A program made the position numbers and the translations under genes. Shown here piece by piece: positions 3,850 to 16,231 of a stretch of 64,000 nt of DNA (position 1 is its first letter; the number at the start of each line of letters is the position of its first letter). Source of the stretch: Nocardiopsis trehalosi NBRC 14201 (lineage in GTDB: Bacteria; Actinomycetota; Actinomycetes; Streptosporangiales; Streptosporangiaceae); assembly GCF_001552555.1 (NCBI RefSeq), contig NZ_BCRK01000007.1:1-64000 (forward strand), written 5' to 3'. Below the pieces are notes generated by a model. That model was not told the DNA's origin and searched no databases. It saw nothing but the letters and a program-made list of their open reading frames with translations.

Positions 3850-6558
3850 CTACAGCGGGAGGCCGGCCTCGCCGCCGACCAGCGCCTCGACGCCGCCCGC
3901 CACCATGGGCCGGGCCACCAGGTAGCCCTGGCCGTACCCGCAGCCCATGGTGCGCAGCTGCTCCAGTTGCTCGGGGCGCTCGATGCCCTCGGCGATCACC
4001 TGCATGCCGAGGTCCTGGCCGAGCCGGATGATGGTGTGGGTGAGCAGGGTCACCGTGCCGTCGGAGCCCAGGTCGCCGATGAACGAGGGGTCGATCTTGA
4101 TGGCGTCGACCCGCAACTGGCGCAGGTGCGCCAGCGACGCGTAGCCCATGCCGAAGTCGTCGATGGCCAGCCGGACCCCCAGGCGGCGCAGCTCCGCGAG
4201 GCGCTCGACCGCCTCGCCCGGGTTCTCCAGCAGCACCTCCTCGTCGACCTCGACGGTGAGCACGCCCGCCGGCAGCCCGCTCTCGGCCAGCACGCCCGCC
4301 ACCGTCGCGACGAACCCCGGCTGCAGGATCTGCTTGACCGACAGGTTCACCGACAGCGCGATGTCCCACTCCGAGGCCCGCCAGACCGCGACCTTGGCGC
4401 ACGCCTCGCGCAGGATCCACTCGCCCAGCGGGGCGATCAGCCCGGACTCCTCGGCCGGGCCGATGAACGCCTCGGGCATCACCAGCTCGCCGTCGCGCCG
4501 CCAGCGCACCAGCGCCTCGACCGCCGTCACCTGCGAGCTCTCCAGGTCGACCACCGGCTGGTACTCCAGGACGAAGTCGCCGTTGGCGAGCGCCTGGCGC
4601 AACCGGGTCTGCAGCTCCAGCCGGCCCACCACCCGGGCGTGCATGTCGGCGGCGTAGATCTCCAGCCGCCCGCCGCCGCCCTGCTCCTTGGCGCGGGCCA
4701 GGGCCATGTCGGCGTTGCGCAGCAGCTCCCCGCTGTCCATGCCGTGCTCGGCGAACGCCACGCCGGCGCTGGCGGTCAGCACGACCTCGCGGTCGGCCAC
4801 CTGGAACGGCTCGGCGCTGATCACCCGGGCCAGCCGCTCGGCGAGGTCGACCACCTGCTGGGCGTGCGCCCCCTCCTCGATGAGGACGGCGAACTCGTCG
4901 CCGCCCCACCGGGCGAGGGTGACCCCGGAGTCGGTGGTGGCGCGCAGCCGCCGCGCGGCCTGGGCGAGCAGGTAGTCGCCGAAGGTGTGCCCGGCGGAGT
5001 CGTTGACCGCGGTGAAGCCGTCGAGGTCCAGGAAGATCGCCGCGACCTCGCCGGTGGGCGCCCCCTCGGACCGCTCGCGGCGGGCCAGCACCTCGCGGCC
5101 GCGCTCCTCCAGGTAGGCGCGGTTGGGCAGGCCGGTGATGCCGTCGTGGAAGGTCAGGTGGTTGACCTGGTCCTCCAGCGCCACCTGGGCGCTGATGTCG
5201 CGGGTGGTCACCAGCAGCCGGTCGGGCTCGCCGGGCTGCTCGTAGAGCGACGCGGTGGACTCGGTGTGCCGCCAGGTGCCGTCGCCGGAGCGCACCCGGA
5301 CCCGCAGGTGGATGCCCTCGCCCGCGCCCCCCTGGAACGCCGCCATGGCGGCGCCGACCTGCGGCAGGTCCTCGGGGTGCACGATGGCGGTCACCGGTTC
5401 GGCCAGGATGTCGTCGAGGCGGTACCCGAACGCCTCGGCCGCGCCCGGGCTGACGTAGAAGATCCGGCCGTCGTAGTCGAGGATGAGGATGACGTCGCCG
5501 CTGTTGCGCGCCAGCTCGTGGAAGTGCCGCTCACGCGTCGAGACCATGCGGGTCAGGGTGGCGTTCTCCTCCAGCAGCCCGCTCACCCGCACCAGCAGCA
5601 CCAGGACCGCCGAGCCCGCGGCCAGCGGCAGCACCGGCGCGACCCCGTCGAGCCGCAGCCCGCCGATGGTCAGCACCACGGCGGCCACGGCGAGCGCCCC
5701 GGACGCCGCGATCTCCGGCGCGAAGCGGTACAGGCCGCGCCCGGTGATCCGCCGCGGCGGCGCCCCCGCGCGGTCGCGGATCAGCCACGGCAGGCTGCCC
5801 AGCAGCGCGAACCCCAGGAACCGCACCGGGTACTCGATGCCCCCCGCCAGCGCCACCCCGGTCAGCCGGCTGACGGCGCCGATCAGGTCGGCGCCGCAGA
5901 TGATGACGAACGCCCCCATGGCCAGCAGCACCGCGCGCCGCGTGCTGTGCGGCGAGGTGAACACCAGCGGCCCCAGCAGGCAGAGCACCGCGATGTCGGC
6001 CACCGGGTAGACCAGCGCGAACGCGAGGAAGCCCGCGCCCTCGCCGAGGTCGCTGTAGAGCGGGGCGAACAGCAGCAGCCACACCACCGAGAACACCGCG
6101 GCCGCGCACACGTAGCTGTCGGTGAAGTGCCGCATGGCCGTGCGGACCCCGCGCGGCAGCGGCGCGAACCGGACGAACCCCAGGACGAACAGCGGCAGCG
6201 CGAACAGCATGAACAGGTCGCCGAAGGTCAGCGACACCGCCGCGTTGGTGCTCAGCAGCCCGGTGACCGCGTAGGTGACCGCGCCGGCGCACCACGCCAG
6301 GGCGGCGAAGCCGAGGAAGCGCAGGGCGGCGGCGCCGTCGGCGCCGTCGGCGTTGGCCTCGCCGTCGGCGGAGGTGGCCGCGCGCCGCCGGGCGGAGTAG
6401 AGCAGCGACACGGCGGCCGCGCCGGCCGCGAGGGCGGTCGGCCAGCTCCCGAGCCGGGTGGTCAGGGACATCCCCCCGGAGCCGACGAGCGTGCCCAGGG
6501 CGTAGAGCAGGGTCACGACCACGATGGCCGCGGGCCAGAGCCGGGATCCGGGCTTCAT
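3850..6558 (-). CDS. cdgF: Membrane PAS-GGDEF-EAL c-di-GMP protein (CdgF-like)
   Basis: A 902-residue protein with about eight to ten hydrophobic segments in residues 1-335, a PAS domain (about 343-450), a GGDEF diguanylate cyclase domain (motif RWGGDEF near 553) and an EAL phosphodiesterase domain (EALVRW near 682). Both active sites look intact: GGDEF is complete, and the EAL part keeps its Asn (VNLS), Glu (VEVDE), DDFG, Lys (AIKID), AEGIE and QGY elements. The RxxD inhibitory site five residues before GGDEF is absent. Its place next to ilvB matches cdgF of Streptomyces, where c-di-GMP controls development through BldD. The start has GGAGG 7 nt upstream. Whether cyclase or phosphodiesterase activity dominates cannot be told. 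Confidence 0.9.
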   Translation of the reverse strand: MKPGSRLWPAAIVVVTLLYALGTLVGSGGMSLTTRLGSWPTALAAGAAAVSLLYSARRRAATSADGEANADGADGAAALRFLGFAALAWCAGAVTYAVTGLLSTNAAVSLTFGDLFMLFALPLFVLGFVRFAPLPRGVRTAMRHFTDSYVCAAAVFSVVWLLLFAPLYSDLGEGAGFLAFALVYPVADIAVLCLLGPLVFTSPHSTRRAVLLAMGAFVIICGADLIGAVSRLTGVALAGGIEYPVRFLGFALLGSLPWLIRDRAGAPPRRITGRGLYRFAPEIAASGALAVAAVVLTIGGLRLDGVAPVLPLAAGSAVLVLLVRVSGLLEENATLTRMVSTRERHFHELARNSGDVILILDYDGRIFYVSPGAAEAFGYRLDDILAEPVTAIVHPEDLPQVGAAMAAFQGGAGEGIHLRVRVRSGDGTWRHTESTASLYEQPGEPDRLLVTTRDISAQVALEDQVNHLTFHDGITGLPNRAYLEERGREVLARRERSEGAPTGEVAAIFLDLDGFTAVNDSAGHTFGDYLLAQAARRLRATTDSGVTLARWGGDEFAVLIEEGAHAQQVVDLAERLARVISAEPFQVADREVVLTASAGVAFAEHGMDSGELLRNADMALARAKEQGGGGRLEIYAADMHARVVGRLELQTRLRQALANGDFVLEYQPVVDLESSQVTAVEALVRWRRDGELVMPEAFIGPAEESGLIAPLGEWILREACAKVAVWRASEWDIALSVNLSVKQILQPGFVATVAGVLAESGLPAGVLTVEVDEEVLLENPGEAVERLAELRRLGVRLAIDDFGMGYASLAHLRQLRVDAIKIDPSFIGDLGSDGTVTLLTHTIIRLGQDLGMQVIAEGIERPEQLEQLRTMGCGYGQGYLVARPMVAGGVEALVGGEAGLPL

Positions 6559-7110: not shown

Positions 7111-7140
7111 GTGACCGGCGGGGGTCGGACCCCCGGTCAC
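7111..7140 (-). terminator. Hairpin terminator overlapping the gatB stop
   Basis: GTGACCGG...CCGGTCAC, extended by a GGGGT/ACCCC inner stem with a 2-nt bulge and a 3-nt loop. The outer arm contains the gatB stop codon. There is no U-tract. Confidence 0.55.
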
Positions 7141-8684
7141 GCGGCTCCCAGCCGCTCCAGGATCATCTGCCGGGCGCGGCCCGCGTCGGCCTGGCCGCGG
7201 GTGGCCTTCATCACCGCGCCGACGAGCGCCCCGGCCGCGGCGACCTTGCCGCCGCGGATCTTCTCGGCGACGTCGGGGTTGTCGGCGATGGCGCGGTCGA
7301 CGGCGGCGCCGAGGGCGGAGTCGTCGCTGACGACCTTGAGGCCGCGGGCCTCGACCACCTGGTCGGGGTCGCCCTCGCCGTTGAGCACCCCCTCGACCAC
7401 CTGGCGGGCGAGCTTGTTGGTGAGCGTGCCCTCGGCGACCAGCGCCGCGACCCGCGCCACCTGGGCGGGGGTGATGGGCAGGGCGGCGAGTTCGACCTCG
7501 TTCTCGGTGGCCCGGCGCGACAGCTCGTTCAGCCACCACTTGCGGGCGTCGGCCGGCGGCGCGCCGGCGTCGACGGTGGCGGAGACCAGGGCGATGGCGT
7601 CGGCGTTGACGAGGTCGCGCAGCTCCTCGTCGGTCAGCGACCACTCGGCCTTGACGCGGGCGCGCAGGGCGGCGGGCAGCTCGGGCAGGCCGGCGCGCAG
7701 CTCCTCGACCCAGGCGGGGTCGGGCGCGACGGGCACGAGGTCGGGGTCGGGGAAGTAGCGGTAGTCCTGCGCCTCCTCCTTGCTCCGGCCCGCGACCGTG
7801 CCGCCGGTGTTCTCCTGGAAGTGGCGGGTCTCCTGCACGACCCGCTGCCCGGCGTCGAGGACGCCGGCCTGGCGCTCGATCTCGGAGCGCACCGCGCGCT
7901 CGACGGAGCGCAGCGAGTTGACGTTCTTGGTCTCGCTGCGGGTGCCCCACTCGGTGGCGCCGACGGGCATCAGCGAGACGTTGACGTCGCAGCGCAGCGA
8001 GCCCTCCTCCATGCGCACGTCGGAGATGCCGAGGGAGCGGACGAGGTCGCGCAGCTCGCTCACGTAGGCGCGGGCCACGAGCGGGGCGAGGTCGCCGGTG
8101 TGCTCGATGGGCCGGGTGACGATCTCCAGCAGCGGGATGCCGGCCCGGTTGTAGTCGACGATCGAGTACTCCGCGCCGTGGATGCGGCCGGTGGCGCCGC
8201 CCACGTGGGCGGTCTTGCCGGTGTCCTCCTCCATGTGGACGCGCTCGATCTCGACCCGGAACTCGCGGGGGCCGTCGGGGGTGTCGACGGTGACGTCGAG
8301 GTGGCCGTCGCTGCACAGCGGCTCGTCGTACTGGGAGATCTGGTAGTTCTTCGGCATGTCCGGATAGAAGTAGTTCTTCCGGGCGAACCTGCACCATTCA
8401 GCGATCGAGCAGTTGAGCGCCAGCCCGAGCCGCACGGCGCTCTCGACGGCGGTGCCGTTGACCACCGGCAGCGCGCCGGGCAGGGCCAGGCACACCGGGC
8501 ACACCTGGGTGTTGGGGGCGGCGCCGAACACGGTGGCGCAGGAGCAGAACATCTTCGAGGCCGTACCGAGCTCGACGTGGGTCTCCAGCCCGAGCACCGG
8601 CGCGTACCGGCGCATGGCGTCGTCGAAGGCCACCGGAGCGGGGGTCCCGTCCGTGGCAGGGTTCCTCGTTACCGCGCCAACCAT
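7137..8684 (-). CDS. gatB: Asp/Glu-tRNA(Asn/Gln) amidotransferase subunit B
   Basis: Subunit B of GatCAB, which binds the mischarged Glu-tRNA(Gln) or Asp-tRNA(Asn), activates the carboxylate by phosphorylation and receives ammonia from GatA. The signature [16 protein letters not shown] lies near residue 30, with further zinc/catalytic-core residues ([29 protein letters not shown]) and a C-terminal GatB/YqeY helical domain. The 515 residues from ATG 8684 match the family. The frame remains open further upstream, but that extension is low-complexity and has no family match. Unusually, it is 3.3 kb from gatA, with two surface-protein genes between. Confidence 0.95.
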
Positions 8685-9014
8685 CGCCGCACAACCCGTT
8701 TCCGTGTCCGAAGCCCCCGCCGCGCTCTGCCTCGCCGCCGGGGGCGCCCACCAGGATCCGTGCCGCACCGACTCCGGGGGCACCTCCGCAAGCCTACCGA
8801 TGCCGGGGCCGGGGCGGGCACGAACCCGCGCCGGGCCCGCCGTGACGCGGGCCATCCCGGCCCGGTGCGCGCACCAGGTCACAGCACGCACACGATTCGA
8901 CGTCGCTCGGGCGCACCTTCGAGGCGCTGCGGCACCGCGCGGTTACCCTGGAGAACCGGCCGCACGTCCGCGGCCCCATCCCCCATTCCTTCTCCGCCTG
9001 GAGTGCGTCCGCCC
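8685..9014. other. Divergent promoter region gatB / TQXA protein
   Basis: 330 bp between the starts of gatB (minus) and the first TQXA surface-protein gene (plus). A TACCCT hexamer at about 8944-8949 could be a -10 for the plus-strand gene, but no good -35 accompanies it. No gene is supported. Confidence 0.4.
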
Positions 9015-10163
9015 ATGCCCCGTCTTCTGCGGCGCTGCGCCGCGGTGCTGTGCGCCGCGGCCGCCATCGGCGCGGGCGCCGTCCCGGCCTCCGCCGCCGA
9101 GGGCGTCATCCGGGTCGACCCCGCCCCCGTCGCGGGCGCCCCCGTGCGCCTGGCCGACGGCGTGTCCGCCGAGACCGCCCTGTACCGCCTGCTCGTCGAC
9201 GGCGCGGCGTCGGTACCCGCCTACGGCGCGGCCCTCGGTGACGGCGTCGACGTCGGCGCCGCCTACGACGAGACCGCCTGGACCGCGCCGGCCGCACCGA
9301 CCCCCGACCCGGGTCCGCTCACCTGGATCGTGCGCAACTCCTATCCGCGGCTCGACCTGGACCGGCTGCGCGCCGAGAGCGGGGTGCCCGGCCTGACCGA
9401 GGAGGCGGCGATCGCCGGCACCCAGGCCGCCGTCTGGCACTACACCGACGGCACCGACCTGGCCGCCGCGGGCGGCGGCAACGCGCCCGAGGTCCGTGCC
9501 CTCTACGACCACCTCGTGGCCGGCGCGGTCGTCCACGGCGCCGCCACCGCCCCGCCGACGCTGTCGGTCACCCCCGAGCGCGTCGAGGGCGCCGACCCGG
9601 CCGACCCCATCGGTCCGCTGACCGTGCGCACCACCGCGGCCGGCCCGGTGGCGGTGTCGGTGCGGGGCGCCCCGGGGGTGCGGCTGACCGACGCGGAGGG
9701 CGCGGAGGTCACCCGGGTCGCCGACGGGGCGGAGTTCGAGCTGCGCGTCGACCCCTCCGTGCCCGAGGGGGTGGCCACCGTCTACGCCAGCGCCGAGGAC
9801 GCCGCGGTGGCGCCCGGTCTGCTGTTCACCGGCCGCGACGGTGTGCAGACCCGGCCACTGGTGACGGCCGGCTCCGCCGTCGCCGAGGCGACGGTCGCGG
9901 TGACGGTCGACTGGAGCGCCGCCGCGCCCTCACCGCCGCCCGCCGCCGAGGCGCCGTCCCCCTCCCCCGCCGCGCCGACGGAGTCGCCGTCGGCCCGACC
10001 AGAGCCCGCGGCGACGCCGAGCGCCGCCGCGGGCACCGACGGCCGCCGCCCCGAGGGCGGGCTCGCGTTCACCGGCACCTGGGCGGGCGGTCTGCTGGCC
10101 ATCGGGGCGGGGCTCCTGGCGGTCGGCGCCGCGGCGATGTACGCCGGGCGCCGGCGGCGCTGA
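9015..10163 (+). CDS. TQXA-domain cell-surface protein, thioester Cys missing, LAFTG anchor
   Basis: A 382-residue secreted surface protein. It has a signal peptide (residues 1-29, cut near ASA-AEG), a TQXA domain with GTQAAVWHYTDG (Gln near 137), a middle Ig-like region, a Pro/Ser/Ala-rich wall-spanning stretch, and a C-terminal sorting signal LAFTG (near 349-353) followed by a membrane helix and RRRR. LAxTG is the motif used by actinobacterial class E sortases. TQXA domains normally form an internal Cys-Gln thioester that binds host or surface amines. Here the mature protein has no cysteine at all: the YCIDF position of the neighbouring paralog reads RLLVD. Thioester chemistry is therefore not possible as usual. 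GGAG 12 nt upstream supports the ATG. Confidence 0.85.
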   Translation: MPRLLRRCAAVLCAAAAIGAGAVPASAAEGVIRVDPAPVAGAPVRLADGVSAETALYRLLVDGAASVPAYGAALGDGVDVGAAYDETAWTAPAAPTPDPGPLTWIVRNSYPRLDLDRLRAESGVPGLTEEAAIAGTQAAVWHYTDGTDLAAAGGGNAPEVRALYDHLVAGAVVHGAATAPPTLSVTPERVEGADPADPIGPLTVRTTAAGPVAVSVRGAPGVRLTDAEGAEVTRVADGAEFELRVDPSVPEGVATVYASAEDAAVAPGLLFTGRDGVQTRPLVTAGSAVAEATVAVTVDWSAAAPSPPPAAEAPSPSPAAPTESPSARPEPAATPSAAAGTDGRRPEGGLAFTGTWAGGLLAIGAGLLAVGAAAMYAGRRRR

Positions 10164-10570
10164 GGCGCCGGGGCACGTCACCGGGGGTGGCCGCCGTTCG
10201 GTCGGCCCTGCGGAAGGGCGCCGGAGCGGTCCGTAATAGAGTCCGACCGGAATTCGGCGGAGCCCGACAGGGCACCAAGGCCAGAAGGGCAGTGATGCCC
10301 GCAGGGGCGCCCGGAAAACCGACAGTGACGAACTATTCAGTGTCAATTCGCTGAAGCCGGTTGGAAGCCCGGAATCGGGTCGCTAGTATCTGGCGGTGCG
10401 GTAGTTGACCCCACGCCGTCGCGGCCCCCGCTACCGCGACACGGCGATCAACGCATCACGCCCCCTGGCGTCCGAATCACCTCATTGGCCGAAACCGCAC
10501 CGGACCTCGTGGAACACACCGCGCGTTCGCGGATGACCACACCGGACGGCCACAGCCGCACCCGTCCGAC
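10164..10570. other. Intergenic region between the two TQXA genes
   Basis: 407 bp. It begins with a small hairpin around the upstream stop codon (10155-10170, 6-bp stem) and contains the strong promoter listed separately, leaving a long untranslated leader of about 175 nt before the second TQXA gene. No known riboswitch was recognised in this leader. Confidence 0.5.
10361..10389 (+). promoter_or_regulatory. Sigma-70-type promoter of the second TQXA gene
   Basis: TTGGAA at 10361-10366 and TAGTAT at 10384-10389 with a spacer of exactly 17 bp. This is the best housekeeping-type promoter seen in the window. Transcription would start near 10396. Confidence 0.65.
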
Positions 10571-11818
10571 GTGACGGAACGGCATTGTCCGGTTCCCCTA
10601 ACATCACCGGGACACAATTTGATCGACACACGACTCCCCCACTCGCGCCGCGGTCGGCGCGTCCTCGCCGTCGCCGCCGCCTCCACCGCGGCCGCCCTGG
10701 CGTTCGGCTTCACCGCCGGTCCGGCGTTCGCCGACGGCGCCAAGGGCACCTACACGGACAACGCCCTCAACGGCCCCTCGGTCAAGACCGACCAGGGCGA
10801 GGTCAGCACGTCGCTGTTCAACCTCAAGCTCGAAGACGGCACGGTCCTGCAGACCTACTGCATCGACTTCGAGACCGACATCCGCAAGAACGCGGCGTAC
10901 CAGGAGGACGCCTGGGCGAACTACCCGGGCAAGGGCGCCTTCACCGAGCCCGCCAAGGTCCACTGGATCCTGCAGAACAGCTACCCGACGCTGAGCGCCG
11001 CCGACCTCGCGGCGGCCGCCGGTGTCGACGGCCTGAACGACCGGCAGGCCATGGCCGCCACCCAGGCCGCCATCTGGCACTTCAGCAACGGCGTCAACCT
11101 GCTGGACGACAACAACGCGAAGGTCAAGGCGGTCTACGACTACCTGATCGAGAACGCGCAGGACCTCCCGCAGACCAGCGAGCCCGACGCGTCGCTCTCG
11201 ATCACCCCGGCCACCGCCGAGGGCACCGCCGGCAGCACCATCGGCGAGTTCACGATCGAGACCAGCGCCGCGTCCGTGCCGCTGAACGTCGACGCCCCCG
11301 ACGGCGTCGAGCTGGTGGACCTGGAGACCGGCGAGCCGGTCACCGAGGCCTCCAGCGGCGACAAGCTCGGCTTCGAGGTCCCCGCCGACGCCGCGCCGGG
11401 CGAGGCGTCGGTGTCGGCCTCGGTCTCCGCCGAGGTGCACGCCGGCCGCCTGTTCAAGGGCACCGAGGACAAGCCGACCCAGACCCTCATCACCGCCGAG
11501 AGCGGCGAGGCCGAGGTCAGCGCCGCCGCGTCGGTCTCCTGGACCGAGGGCACCCAGCCCTCGCCGTCCCCGAGCCCGAGCACGCCGCCGAGCGAGTCCC
11601 CCTCGCCCAGCCCGACGCCGAGCGAGACCCCCTCGCCCAGCCCGAGCGAGACCCCGGACGACCGGCCGACCCCCGATGACGACGAGGACCTGCCGCTGAC
11701 GGGTGCCGCCATCGGCGGGCTCGTCGCCGCCGGTGTCGCCGCCGTCGGTGCCGGTGCCGCCGCCATGTACCTGAGCCGCAAGCGGCGGGGTGCCAACGGC
11801 GACTCCATCGACGGGTAG
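10571..11818 (+). CDS. TQXA thioester-domain surface protein, LPLTG anchor
   Basis: A 415-residue surface adhesin-like protein. It has a long signal peptide (RRGRR then a hydrophobic stretch, cut near AFA-DG at residues 52-55), a TQXA domain with both thioester partners (Cys97 in QTYCIDFETD and Gln165 in ATQAAIWHF), a repeat-like beta region (about 205-325), a Ser/Pro/Thr-rich spacer of SPSPTPSE type repeats, and the sorting signal LPLTG near residue 374 with membrane helix and basic tail. It is a paralog of the gene upstream. The GTG at 10571 has no clear ribosome-binding site; a TTG at 10619 would still leave a usable signal peptide. Sortase attachment to peptidoglycan is inferred. Confidence 0.88.
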   Translation: MTERHCPVPLTSPGHNLIDTRLPHSRRGRRVLAVAAASTAAALAFGFTAGPAFADGAKGTYTDNALNGPSVKTDQGEVSTSLFNLKLEDGTVLQTYCIDFETDIRKNAAYQEDAWANYPGKGAFTEPAKVHWILQNSYPTLSAADLAAAAGVDGLNDRQAMAATQAAIWHFSNGVNLLDDNNAKVKAVYDYLIENAQDLPQTSEPDASLSITPATAEGTAGSTIGEFTIETSAASVPLNVDAPDGVELVDLETGEPVTEASSGDKLGFEVPADAAPGEASVSASVSAEVHAGRLFKGTEDKPTQTLITAESGEAEVSAAASVSWTEGTQPSPSPSPSTPPSESPSPSPTPSETPSPSPSETPDDRPTPDDDEDLPLTGAAIGGLVAAGVAAVGAGAAAMYLSRKRRGANGDSIDG

Positions 11819-11853
11819 TACCCGCCGGACCCCCGCCTGAGCGGGGGAACGGC

Positions 11854-11886
11854 GACGCCCGCCGCAGCGCTGCTGCGGCGGGCGTC
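11854..11886. terminator. Bidirectional hairpin terminator
   Basis: A perfect 14-bp stem (11854-11867 with 11873-11886, 5-nt loop) between the convergent TQXA gene and gatA. A second smaller GC hairpin sits just before it at about 11830-11847. Confidence 0.75.
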
Positions 11887-11949
11887 GTCATGTCCGGGGC
11901 CCGCGCGGTCGGCCGGCCCGGTCCCCGCGGGGGCCGGGCCGGCCGCCGG

Positions 11950-13452
11950 TCACACCGCCATGGGGCTGCGCGCCAGCAGGGGCCCGCCGTCGCGGTCGGC
12001 GAGCGCCGCCTCGACGGCCGCGCCCACCCGGTAGGCGCGGTCGTCGGCCAGCGCCGGGGCGAGGATCTGCAGCCCCACCGGCAGGCCGTCCTCGGGCGCC
12101 AGCCCGCACGGCACCGACAGCGCGGCGCTCCCCGCCAGGTTGGTCGGGATGGTGCACAGGTCGGCGAGGTACATCGCCATGGGGTCGTCGGTGCGCTCGC
12201 CGATGGGGAACGCCGTGGTGGGCGTCGTGGGCGAGACCAGCACGTCGACGTTGGCGAACGCGGCGTCGAAGTCGCGCTTGATCAGCGTGCGGACCTGCTG
12301 CGCCGACCCGTAGTAGGCGTCGTAGTAGCCGCTCGACAGGGCGTAGGTGCCCAGGATGATGCGCCGCTTGACCTCGGGGCCGAACCCCTCGGCGCGGGTC
12401 AGCGCCATGACCTCCTCGGCGCTGCGCGTGCCGTCGTCGCCCACCCGCAGGCCGTAGCGCATGGCGTCGAACCGGGCCAGGTTGGACGACGCCTCGCTGG
12501 GCGCGATGAGGTAGTAGGCGGCGAGCGCGGCGTCGAAGCTCGGGCACGACACCTCGACCACCTTGGCGCCCAGCGCCTCCAGCAGCTCCACCGCCTCGTG
12601 GAAGCGGCGCAGCACACCGGGCTGGAAGCCCGCGCCGTCGAACTCCCGGATGACGCCGACCCGCATGCCGGCGACGTCGGCGCGCCGGGCGGCCTCGACC
12701 ACCGGCGGGACCGGGGCGTCGACGGAGGTGGAGTCGCGCGGGTCGTGGCCGGAGAACGCCTCGTGCAGCAGGGCGGCGTCGAGGACGTTGCGGGCGAACG
12801 GACCCGGGGTGTCGAGCGACGACGCGAACGCGATCAGGCCGTAGCGCGACGACCCGCCGTAGGTGGGCTTGGCGCCGACGAGCCCGCACACCGCGGCCGG
12901 CTGGCGGATGGACCCGCCGGTGTCGGTGCCGGTGGCCAGCGGCGCCTCGAACGCGGCGACGGCCGCCGAGGAGCCGCCGGAGGACCCGCCGGGGATGCGG
13001 GAGAGGTCCCACGGGTTGCGGGTGGGGCCGTAGGCGGAGTTCTCGGTGGAGGAGCCCATGGCGAACTCGTCCATGTTGGTCTTGCCGAGGATGACCAGGC
13101 CGGCCTCGCGCAGCCGCGCGGTGACGGTGGCGTCGTAGGGGGGCCGCCACCCTTCGAGGATGCGCGACGCGGCCGTGGTGGGCATGTCCTTGGTGCTGAA
13201 CACGTCCTTGTGGGCGACCGGGACGCCCGCGAGGGGGCCCAGCTCGGCGCCGTCGGCGCGGCGGGCGTCGACCGCCCGCGCCTGGTCGAGCGCGGTGTCG
13301 CGGTCGACGTGCAGGAACGCGTTCACCTCGGGGTCGACCTCGGCGATGCGGTCGAGGTAGGCGGTGGTGGCCTCGACGGAGGAGGTGTCGCCGGCGCTGA
13401 TGGCGGCGCCGAGTTCGGCCGCGCTCATGCGGATGAGGTCGGTGGCGGTCAC
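11950..13452 (-). CDS. gatA: Asp/Glu-tRNA(Asn/Gln) amidotransferase subunit A
   Basis: Amidase-signature glutaminase subunit of GatCAB; it releases ammonia from glutamine for transfer by GatB. The Ser-cisSer-Lys triad is visible: Lys in [18 protein letters not shown], the cis-Ser in [11 protein letters not shown], and the nucleophile in [10 protein letters not shown]. The 500 residues match the family. The GTG start overlaps the gatC stop by four bases (GTGA), so translation is coupled to gatC. GatB is not adjacent, but no other GatCAB genes are seen in the window, so these three most likely form one enzyme. Confidence 0.96.
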
Positions 13453-13748
13453 TCCTCCTCCCCCAGGATGCGCGGCACGCGGAAGCGCTGGTCCTCGACC
13501 GCGGGCGCGCCCGCCAGCGCCTCGTCGGGGCTCAGCCCCGGCAGGGCGACGTCGGCGCGGTGGACGTTGGTCAGCGGCAGGGCGTGCGAGGTCGGCGGGA
13601 TGTCGCCCTGGGCGACCTCCTGCACCTTGGCCACAGCCGAGAGGATCTCGTCGAGCTGGGCGGCGAGCCGGTCGAGCTCGTCCTCGGGCAGCGCCAGCCG
13701 CGACAGCCGGGCGAGGTGGGCGACCTCATCGCGGGTGATGGCGGACAT
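13449..13748 (-). CDS. gatC: Asp/Glu-tRNA(Asn/Gln) amidotransferase subunit C
   Basis: The small subunit that wraps around GatA and GatB and stabilises the complex. The 99-residue sequence has the family opening [21 protein letters not shown] and the [13 protein letters not shown]...FRVPRIL end typical of GatC. ATG 13748 is chosen; a TTG three codons upstream (13757) is possible, and neither has a good ribosome-binding site. First gene of gatCA. Confidence 0.94.
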
Positions 13749-13864
13749 GTTCAACAAACCGTTTCTTCGGTGGATGCGGACGCGTCAATCCTATGGCCGC
13801 CCGGTGCGGGGCGTCGTCGGACGCGGGGCGGCGCCCGCCGCCAGCGCCGCCTACACGGCGCCGC

Positions 13865-15922
13865 CTACACGGTGCCGGAGGGCTCCTCGGCGCGGCGGCC
13901 GCGCCCGAGGTTGCGCAGCAGCCAGCCGGAGACCTCGGCGGCCTCCAGCGGCGGGGCGAAGAACCGGCCCTGCGCGGCGTGGCAGCCCATGGCCCGCATG
14001 GCCTCGGCCACGGCCTCGGTCTCGACGCCCTCGGCGACGGCGCGCATGCCCAGCGTGCCGACGAGGTCGACCGCGGACTCCACGATGACCCGGCCGTCGG
14101 GGTCGGCGACGCTGCGGCGGACGAAGGACTCGTCGATCTTGATCTCCTCGACCGGCAGGCCCTTGAGCCGGGCGAGGGTGAAGTAGCCGGTGCCGAAGTC
14201 GTCCAGGGACAGCGACACCCCGAGGTCGGCGAGGGCGAGGATGGTGGGGGTGACGGCGTCGGCCTCGGCCACCATGACGCGCTCGCTGATCTCCAGGCGC
14301 AGGCCCTCGGGGCTGACGCCGTGGCGGCGCAGCCCGGCGGCGACGATGTCGGGCAGGGTGGGGTCGAGGAGTTCGCGCGCCGAGAGGTTGATCGCCACAG
14401 GGATGTGGAACCCCTCGGCCCGCCAGTGGGCGATCCGCGGCAGGGTCTGCTCCATGACCTCGTGGGTGAAGCTGCGCATCAGGTAGGACTGCTCGACCAT
14501 GGGGACGAACTCCTCGGGCGGGAGCACGCCCCGCTGCGGGTGCCGCCAGCGCACCAGCGCCTCCAGGCCCACCGCGCGGCGGTCGGCCAGGCTCACCTTC
14601 GGCTGGTAGAACATCTCGAGCTCGCCCTCGACCAGGGCCCGCCGCAGCTCGCCGAACAGGCTGAGCCGGGCGGTGGAGTTGCGGTCCTTGTGCGGCGCGT
14701 ACAGCTCGACGCCGGTGCGCCGCTCCTTGGCGACGTACATGGCGACGTCGGCCCGCTGCATGAGGAGTTCGAAGTCGGGCGCGTGGTTGGGGTAGAGCGC
14801 GATGCCGACGCTGGCCTCGATGTCGAAGTCCATGCCGTCGAGCCGCATGGGCTCGGCCAGCGACACCCGCAGCCGGGTGGCGACCTCGCGCGCCGACGCG
14901 GCGTCGCGCACCTGCGGGAGCAGGACCGCGAACTCGTCGCCGCCCAGGCGCGCCACCAGGTCGCCGGGGCGGACGCTGTGGGTGAGCCGGCGCGCCACGG
15001 TCTGCAGGAGGCGGTCGCCGGTGGGATGGCCGAGGGTGTCGTTGACCTCCTTGAACCGGTCGAGGTCGAGCAGCAGCAGGCCGACGCGCTGCTTGCGCTG
15101 CTCGGCGTCGGCCAGCGCCTCCTGGGTGCGCACGATGAGCAGTTTTCGGTTGGCCAGCCCGGTGAGCTCGTCGTGGTTGGCCTGGTGCTCGCGCTTCACC
15201 GACAGGGTGGCGCTGGTGTAGAGGGCGACCAGGGGCAGCGAGAACAGCGGGACCAGCCACACGGAGTGGGCCATGGCGACCACGACGAGCGGGGCGAGGC
15301 TGAGCAGCACCCCGTTGACGAAGAGCCGCTGGCCGAGGTCCTTGCCGAGCACGGTGTGCAGCGGCGCCCGTTCGTGCATGGCGATCGCGCACTCGACCAG
15401 CACCAGGTTGGTGATGAAGTAGGCGGCGGTGGCGAGGGCGACGACGAGGAGTTCGGGGCCCTGCGGCACCCACGGGACCGGGACGGGGCCGGGGGTGAGC
15501 ACGCGCAGGACGAAGTCGGCGCCGCCGAAGGCGAGCACGTACTGGGCGATGTTGAACGCGGTGCGGTGCGGCGCGTGGCCGCGCGCGATGCCCGCGATGA
15601 CCGTGGCGACGGCCTGCACCACCCCGGCGACCGGCAGGCCGTAGGAGATGAGCAGCGCGAAGGAGAACGGCAGCGAGGTGGGGGCGCCGCCCTCGGAACC
15701 GGTGTGGGGGGTGGCGATGGGGCGGAGTTCGCCGAGGATGACCATGCACAGGGTGACCCAGACCAGCGGCTCGCGGGCCAGCTGCTCCAGCCGGCCGACG
15801 CCGAAGACGTAGACGGACACGCCGAGGAGCGCGCAGCCCGCCACGGTGGTGCTGGCGAGGTAGAGCCACAGCGGTGTCCCGATCCGGGGTCCCAGGTCCC
15901 TGGTGCTGGTGGCATCCAACAT
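13865..15922 (-). CDS. rmdB: Membrane GGDEF-EAL c-di-GMP protein (RmdB-like)
   Basis: A 685-residue protein with about six membrane segments in the first 230 residues, then a GGDEF domain (RLGGDEF near 327, preceded by the RPGD inhibitory I-site) and an EAL domain (EALVRW near 452; INLSARE, LEISE, DDFGTGY, EIKID, AEGVE all kept). Both activities could be intact, with cyclase feedback control through the I-site. Location beside ligA fits Streptomyces rmdB, a c-di-GMP phosphodiesterase influencing development. ATG 15922 has GAGGA 6 nt upstream; a longer start at 16033 would add 37 low-complexity residues. It lacks the PAS domain of the paralog at 3850-6558. Confidence 0.9.
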   Translation of the reverse strand: MLDATSTRDLGPRIGTPLWLYLASTTVAGCALLGVSVYVFGVGRLEQLAREPLVWVTLCMVILGELRPIATPHTGSEGGAPTSLPFSFALLISYGLPVAGVVQAVATVIAGIARGHAPHRTAFNIAQYVLAFGGADFVLRVLTPGPVPVPWVPQGPELLVVALATAAYFITNLVLVECAIAMHERAPLHTVLGKDLGQRLFVNGVLLSLAPLVVVAMAHSVWLVPLFSLPLVALYTSATLSVKREHQANHDELTGLANRKLLIVRTQEALADAEQRKQRVGLLLLDLDRFKEVNDTLGHPTGDRLLQTVARRLTHSVRPGDLVARLGGDEFAVLLPQVRDAASAREVATRLRVSLAEPMRLDGMDFDIEASVGIALYPNHAPDFELLMQRADVAMYVAKERRTGVELYAPHKDRNSTARLSLFGELRRALVEGELEMFYQPKVSLADRRAVGLEALVRWRHPQRGVLPPEEFVPMVEQSYLMRSFTHEVMEQTLPRIAHWRAEGFHIPVAINLSARELLDPTLPDIVAAGLRRHGVSPEGLRLEISERVMVAEADAVTPTILALADLGVSLSLDDFGTGYFTLARLKGLPVEEIKIDESFVRRSVADPDGRVIVESAVDLVGTLGMRAVAEGVETEAVAEAMRAMGCHAAQGRFFAPPLEAAEVSGWLLRNLGRGRRAEEPSGTV

Positions 15923-16231
15923 AGACGTCCTCAGGGGGTGCTCATGGGAGTCGGCACCGGGCGGGGACGTCCCCCTCCCGGTGCCGCTCCGCGCGAGATC
16001 TTCGTTCACGGTCACCGCTCCGGTCACCCCCATGACCGTCGCGGCTCGGCTGCGAGTGTGCGGTGCGCCCGGCCGGCCCTCGATTCAGCTTACGTGGCTT
16101 CATCACCGGGTGTCGCCGAACGGGAACTATAAGTGAGGCGCCCGTCGCCTGGGAGAATCGCCCGATTCGATCCAGAATACTGCGACAGGTAGCCTAGTGA
16201 TCGCACATCGTAGAGGCCAGAGGGCGCGGTT
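15923..16231. other. Promoter region of the RmdB-like gene
   Basis: About 310 bp without a supported gene. On the minus strand TATAGT (16131-16126) could be the -10 of the GGDEF-EAL gene, though the -35 is poor. Confidence 0.35.

Follow-up and report, generated by a model that had tools for sequence, protein, structure and literature searches.

A surface TED lacking its thioester residues lies beside a probably reactive paralogue in Nocardiopsis trehalosi

We analyzed a pair of adjacent genes in a 64,000-nucleotide stretch of DNA from Nocardiopsis trehalosi NBRC 14201 (contig NZ_BCRK01000007.1), hereafter the window. The two genes, TED1 and TED2, are neighboring paralogues on the plus strand (9015-10163 and 10571-11818), flanked by gatB on the TED1 side (7137-8891, minus strand) and by gatA-gatC on the TED2 side (11950-13757, minus strand). 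They would form a tandem of class II thioester-domain (TED, or TQXA) surface proteins in a Nocardiopsaceae-type soil actinomycete. The features of the locus are as follows, with residue assignments based on alignment and domain boundaries on modeling or translation.

7137-8891, minus strand: gatB; annotated start uncertain; divergent from TED1, and adjoining TED1 in all syntenic relatives
9015-10163, plus strand: TED1, 382 aa (P0001); predicted to be secreted and anchored by sortase; a class II TED paralogue that lacks the bond residues
9015-9101, plus strand: TED1 signal peptide region, MPRLLRRCAAVLCAAAAIGAGAVPASA/AE, read from the translation; contains the sole two Cys of TED1
9102-9920, plus strand: TED1 class II TED fold (head and beta-sandwich), modeled, mean pLDDT 95.1
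9225-9227, plus strand: TED1 Gly71 codon, in the thioester-Cys column by alignment, in the context VPAYGAAL
9423-9425, plus strand: TED1 Gln137 of TQAAVW, helix motif, not a bond residue
9852-9854, plus strand: TED1 Arg280 codon (GVQTRPLV), in the acyl-donor Gln column by alignment
10062-10076, plus strand: TED1 LAFTG sorting motif, then a hydrophobic stretch and RRRR
10571-11818, plus strand: TED2, a class II TED that has both bond residues; 415 aa when started at GTG 10571
10859-10861, plus strand: TED2 Cys97 (TYCIDF), thioester Cys, an invariant column in the profile of TED2 relatives
11063-11065, plus strand: TED2 Gln165 (TQAAIW), helix motif, not the bond residue
11480-11482, plus strand: TED2 Gln304 (KPTQTLIT), predicted acyl-donor Gln, an invariant column
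11690-11704, plus strand: TED2 LPLTG sorting motif
11950-13452, minus strand: gatA, convergent with TED2
13449-13757, minus strand: gatC, beside gatA

Both proteins match PF08341 (49.7 bits for TED1, 73.6 bits for TED2) and the NCBIfam TQXA_dom model (TIGR03934, 63 bits for TED2), both contain TQAAxWH, and in both the TED is followed by a Pro/Ser-rich stalk and then the sorting signal. These results agree with the original prediction for this locus, made from the sequence alone, of neighboring paralogues with a signal peptide, a TQ-A-x-W-H motif and a sorting signal. The start of TED2 is uncertain (GTG 10571 or TTG near 10620), and the mature protein is the same either way.

The TED cluster interrupts a gatCAB operon (7137-13757). 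In most of the TED-less relatives that we examined gatA and gatB are contiguous, and in every TED-bearing relative of the clade the TED genes sit between them in the opposite orientation. Syntenic relatives carry members of the TED1 clade (TED-A) on the gatB side and TED2-type genes on the gatA side. Several relatives have a single TED at this locus. In many species of the main Nocardiopsis genus of our set (g76), the tandem array has expanded to 3 or 4 genes, and the gatA-side copy of these larger arrays often ends in LAxTG rather than LPVTG. We note that two GGDEF-EAL proteins, of the cyclic di-GMP type by their motifs, are encoded on either side of the gat/TED block (3850-6558 and 13865-16033, both minus strand); a link between these genes and the control of surface attachment is possible.

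Walden 2015 and Miller 2018 named the bond Cys and Gln as the sole fully conserved residues of TEDs (PMC4450167, PMC6194298). In the same work the acyl-donor Gln belongs to a weak motif of its own, on a strand well C-terminal of the helices, and in class II TEDs it comes from a beta-sandwich hairpin (the BaTIE pair is Cys71-Gln266); the TQ Gln and the Trp are described as adjoining the bond but non-essential (PMC4450167, PMC6194298). TED2 fits the motif [YFL]C-hydrophobic-hydrophilic as YCID, which contains the bond Cys97. The original prediction had named this Cys correctly, but had paired it with Gln165, the helix Gln of TQxxxW. Gln165, and likewise Gln137 of TED1, were excluded as thioester Gln both by the literature (PMC4450167, PMC6194298) and by their invariance in Cys-less proteins. 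The bond Gln of TED2 is instead predicted to be Gln304, by homology and conservation: a profile of TED2 relatives aligns to 6FWV and 6FWY, both class II structures, over a span that includes the sandwich, and Gln304 is the residue of TED2 that answers to an acyl-donor Gln on a distant strand. In the profile alignment to 6FWV, Gln304 falls three residues from BaTIE Gln266; because of this offset we base the assignment on conservation and coupled loss, and regard the register of the hairpin relative to Gln266 as provisional. With Cys97 and Gln304 both in place, TED2 is very probably able to form a Cys-Gln thioester.

TED1 differs from TED2 at both positions. Its cysteines are residues 8 and 13 only, both within the signal peptide, so that the mature protein has none, as had been claimed. 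The stretch that aligns with YCIDF is YGAAL (Tyr70-Gly71-Ala72-Ala73-Leu74), and not RLLVD as first read, which lies about 10 residues upstream; the Asp found at +2 from the Cys column is Ala73 in TED1. The Gln noted earlier near residue 137 is present, but it is the TQ Gln, and the true bond column is occupied by Arg280. TED1 is therefore a class II TED by its fold and its TQxxxW motif, with Gly71 and Arg280 standing where the bond Cys and the bond Gln would be. Because both bond residues are gone, TED1 cannot form a Cys-Gln thioester.

We also observed that the TED1 domain (9102-9920) is entirely without lysine, and that Lys counts are lower in TED1-type than in TED2-type proteins. We considered Lys avoidance as a shield of TED1 from the TED2 harpoon and dropped the idea, because Lys-free proteins are common in this genome and a Lys-free TED1 is thus not evidence of protection.

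The original prediction had suggested that the structures of both proteins be predicted. AlphaFold gave a class II TED fold for each, with pLDDT values of 95.1 for TED1 and 94.5 for TED2, the confidence for TED1 being partly family-derived because its alignment includes Cys-positive relatives. The best PDB fold matches of both models were the class II TEDs 6FWV and 6FWY, and a profile of TED1 relatives matches 6FWV over the head and the sandwich; the class II fold is accordingly predicted to be intact in TED1. With the class II TEDs BaTIE (6FWV), EfmTIE86 (6FWY) and SaTIE (6FX6), both proteins share the helical head with TQxxxW and the beta-sandwich insert. TED2 also shares the distant strand Gln with them, whereas TED1 lacks the Cys and the Gln. 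A further difference is that the actinomycete proteins have a short Pro/Ser-rich stalk after the TED, in which no isopeptide domains were seen.

A TED fold without its bond is known from engineered Cys-to-Ala proteins (CpTIE Cys138Ala, 5A0D; Cpa Cys426Ala, 4BUG; SfbI Cys109Ala), which TED1 resembles in this respect. That a Cys-to-Ala TED structure has been solved (5A0D) indicates that the fold outlasts loss of the bond, and in SfbI the change to Ala abolished the covalent adduct (PMC4450167). Many Nocardiopsis orthologues of TED1 carry the same Cys-to-Ala change naturally. In contrast to the engineered proteins, TED1 is a natural protein, its loss is conserved across genera, and the acyl-donor Gln has gone as well.

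An alignment of both proteins with family members, also put forward with the original prediction, was run on 175 TEDs, drawn from same-family genomes and two outside genomes, and gave Gly71 and Arg280 as the bond positions of TED1. When genome contigs were queried with the single TED1 sequence there was no match, whereas an alignment-based query gave matches. A profile search in which the TQ Gln was not required added 5 proteins to the set, all 5 of which have TQ. The Cys column holds Cys in 127/175 TEDs. The remaining 48 are all the gatB-side orthologue and come from 47 genomes in three genera. Every Cys-positive TED (127/127) has Gln in the strand-Gln column; the 48 Cys-less TEDs divide into 23 with Gln, 24 with another residue (13 R, 6 L, 2 A, 2 T and 1 E) and 1 in which the column is not covered. 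We inferred 5 losses of this Gln. All fall on Cys-less branches, whose share of total tree length is 24%; a simple argument from branch lengths gives p ~8e-4. The Asp at +2 of the Cys was likewise lost solely in Cys-less proteins. The Gln of TQxxxW, by comparison, is present in 175/175 TEDs, and the Cys-less TEDs keep this Gln fixed along with the Trp, the Tyr that precedes the Cys column (47/47) and the Thr that precedes the Gln column. The Cys column itself varies among A, T, G, P, S and R in Cys-less TEDs, with Ala the commonest across the clade. At the level of aligned columns, then, the bond chemistry is lost site-specifically and the scaffold is retained.

TED1 belongs to the TED-A clade beside gatB (100/100 support). 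Members of this clade have the Cys in Streptomonospora, Thermobifida, Actinorugispora, Marinactinospora, Marinitenerispora and others. They lack it in 40/40 sampled species of g76 (nearly all titled Nocardiopsis), in the window genome and in six N. halophila/N. potens group species. Copies in 47 genomes are highly diverged, with 38-58% identity to TED1 within the clade. Parsimony on the clade tree requires a minimum of two Cys losses, and a single clade of Cys-less copies, reflecting one loss, was not rejected (p 0.47); a GatA+GatB tree, with modest support, places the window genome away from the other two Cys-less genera. Since 47 genomes share the absence of Cys, with changes in the Asp and Gln columns too, we can rule out a sequencing error hiding a Cys in TED1, a concern raised with the original prediction. 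We note that the TED loci in records titled Glycomyces fuscus TRM 49117 and Streptomonospora nanhaiensis 12A09 group with the Nocardiopsis genus, and these titles may be wrong or outdated.

A phylum sample contained further TED genes whose match misses the Cys. Several Streptomyces genomes have YG or YS replacing YC, with TQVAIW or TQVAVW retained; such genes include 2/39 readable genes of an evenly spaced sample drawn from the better-scoring part of the list. The strand Gln is present in 50/50 Cys-positive genes of the Streptomyces set, and three Streptomyces TEDs have Ser at the Cys column with the Gln kept. Two Streptomyces TEDs without the bond Cys are also without the strand Gln, which is Glu. 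The existence of a Streptomyces YGVG group alongside scattered YG/YS cases suggests, from the residues in these columns, that loss was repeated. In a genus with a mycobacterial look, all readable proteins have AYSLDF, TQAA[IV]W and TP[VI]AL; here Ser stands at the Cys position and the strand Gln has apparently become Pro, the register being judged by eye in a divergent group. The TED sequences of this genus stop after the sandwich, and no sorting signal was seen in them. These mycobacteria-like TQxxxW proteins constitute a second family of bond-less TEDs.

At this locus, both bond residues of TED1 are lost, the fold signature and the anchor are retained, and this state is conserved across genera. 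Because the bond is lost while the fold and the anchor are kept, and because the loss is common to whole genera, TED1 probably works without a covalent bond. Our reading, to which we assign a probability of roughly 0.62, is that TED1 is a naturally bond-less TED beside a reactive TED2, and that it is anchored in the wall, where it serves as a non-covalent binding or structural domain. TED2 would be an ordinary reactive TED, whose Cys97-Gln304 thioester could form a covalent link with an amine of a partner surface. TED1 would be a member of an old sister clade adjoining gatB, in whose Cys-less lineages the Cys and the neighboring Asp would have been lost first and the strand Gln afterwards in many lineages, with the fold, the TQxxxW core, the stalk and a sortase-E-type anchor being kept; its most likely present role would be that of a module on the wall next to TED2. 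We infer that TED1 binds non-covalently, that it would have a ligand, and that it may cooperate with TED2. The link to host binding made in the original prediction did not hold up: nothing we found ties TED1 or TED2 to an animal host, and the relatives include genera such as Thermobifida, whose members are known from compost and soil.

The proposal of a covalent adhesin with a non-covalent decoy or scaffold fared better in part, as one protein is bond-less and the other very probably bonding; the bond-less half of it is stronger than first proposed, both bond residues being absent from TED1. In its strict form, TED1 would exist only to partner TED2, as a scaffold, a decoy or one half of a heteromer, and would have no independent binding role. 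A search of relatives for the same pair, as had been suggested, showed that the adjacency and order of the two genes are kept wherever the TED-A clade occurs, and every sampled genome with a Cys-less TED1 and complete flanks has at least one Cys-positive TED. However, the Cys-less TEDs of Streptomyces and of the mycobacteria-like genus are unpaired and usually the only TED of their genome, so bond loss needs no active partner alongside, and in Thermobifida, Streptomonospora and other genera both copies are Cys-positive. These observations weaken the idea of a decoy or scaffold, and we consider a dedicated partner unlikely.

Alternatively, TED1 could be a decaying gene under relaxed selection, with bond loss as the first step of pseudogenization. 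The free variation at the bond residues (A, T, G, P, S or R at the Cys column) and the relatives with one TED only at the locus would be compatible with decay, but the core positions around the bond are fixed, and 47 genomes retain the gene at 38-58% identity. Nearly all Cys-less TED1-type frames are complete from the signal peptide to an anchor-like end, apart from one with an N gap and one at a contig end. Median dN/dS estimates (NG86, unreliable at this GC content) were 0.47 for the main Cys-less genus, Nocardiopsis, and 0.50 for orthologues that have the Cys, so that the main genus is not above the Cys-positive level; the smaller Cys-less g9 group was higher, at 0.70 by the same unreliable measure over ten pairs. 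On balance we judge decay to be improbable.

The sorting signals offer another way of setting the two proteins apart. The anchors do differ as originally noted, LAFTG in TED1 (10062-10076) versus LPLTG in TED2 (11690-11704), and the genome encodes one class F sortase and one class E sortase, the latter with a profile score of 190.7 bits (cut-off 160). Class E sortases favor LAXTG (PMC5148588), and TED1 is a predicted class E substrate by its LAFTG, hydrophobic stretch and RRRR, with a class E sortase encoded. LAxTG is found in 41/47 Cys-less TED1-type proteins and LPxTG in 84/102 TED2-type proteins, the latter being TED2-type neighbors that may not be strict orthologues. On this basis LAFTG and LPLTG could route TED1 and TED2 to different sortases and hence to different places. 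Both motifs nevertheless occur inside each orthologous group (49 LA and 11 LP in the TED1 clade; 13 LA and 84 LP in other TEDs), and the motif does not track the Cys state. With each TED group containing both motifs, the anchors alone are no proof of separate sorting, and with the motifs swapping within one orthologous group we regard the different-sortases idea of the original prediction as highly improbable.

A replacement of the TED1 thioester by another covalent bond, such as a Ser/Thr-Gln ester, is extremely improbable: TIE proteins do contain intramolecular ester domains (PMC4450167) and Thr or Ser occurs with Gln in relatives (3 TQ and 1 SQ in the Nocardiopsis genus, and the three Streptomyces TEDs with Ser and Gln), but the Gly and Arg at the TED1 positions are unable to bond, Ala is the commonest residue in the clade, and Thr pairs mostly with Arg (11 TR versus 3 TQ).

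Like TED1, some of the Streptomyces and mycobacteria-like TQXA/TED proteins lack the Cys and keep TQxxxW; unlike TED1, which is paired, they are usually encoded by single genes. A more distant parallel is found in the complement/TEP superfamily, in which C5 and some insect TEPs are thioester-less and have known non-covalent roles. As with TED1, a paralogue has lost its internal thioester and is still used beside reactive relatives, although fold and kingdom are unrelated. Our literature search, covering papers available without subscription, turned up no previous description of TEDs in Nocardiopsis or of TEDs that naturally lack the Cys.

The reactive bond is what defines a TED, yet whole actinomycete lineages retain a TED without the bond residues. 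The role of the scaffold and its TQxxxW core is thereby separable from that of the bond. For annotation, a "TQXA domain" or PF08341 match does not mean that a thioester is present, and both the Cys and the strand Gln should be checked. Bond-less TEDs that occur naturally, in cells that also encode a reactive paralogue, provide a test system for how TEDs act before, or without, covalent capture. We tentatively raise the broader possibility, for now a doubtful one, that bond-less TEDs are a recurrent functional class in Actinobacteria, in which the scaffold and TQxxxW core have repeatedly been turned into a non-covalent surface binding module, here beside a covalent one. If this is true, adhesion might begin with a reversible capture and be completed by a covalent lock.
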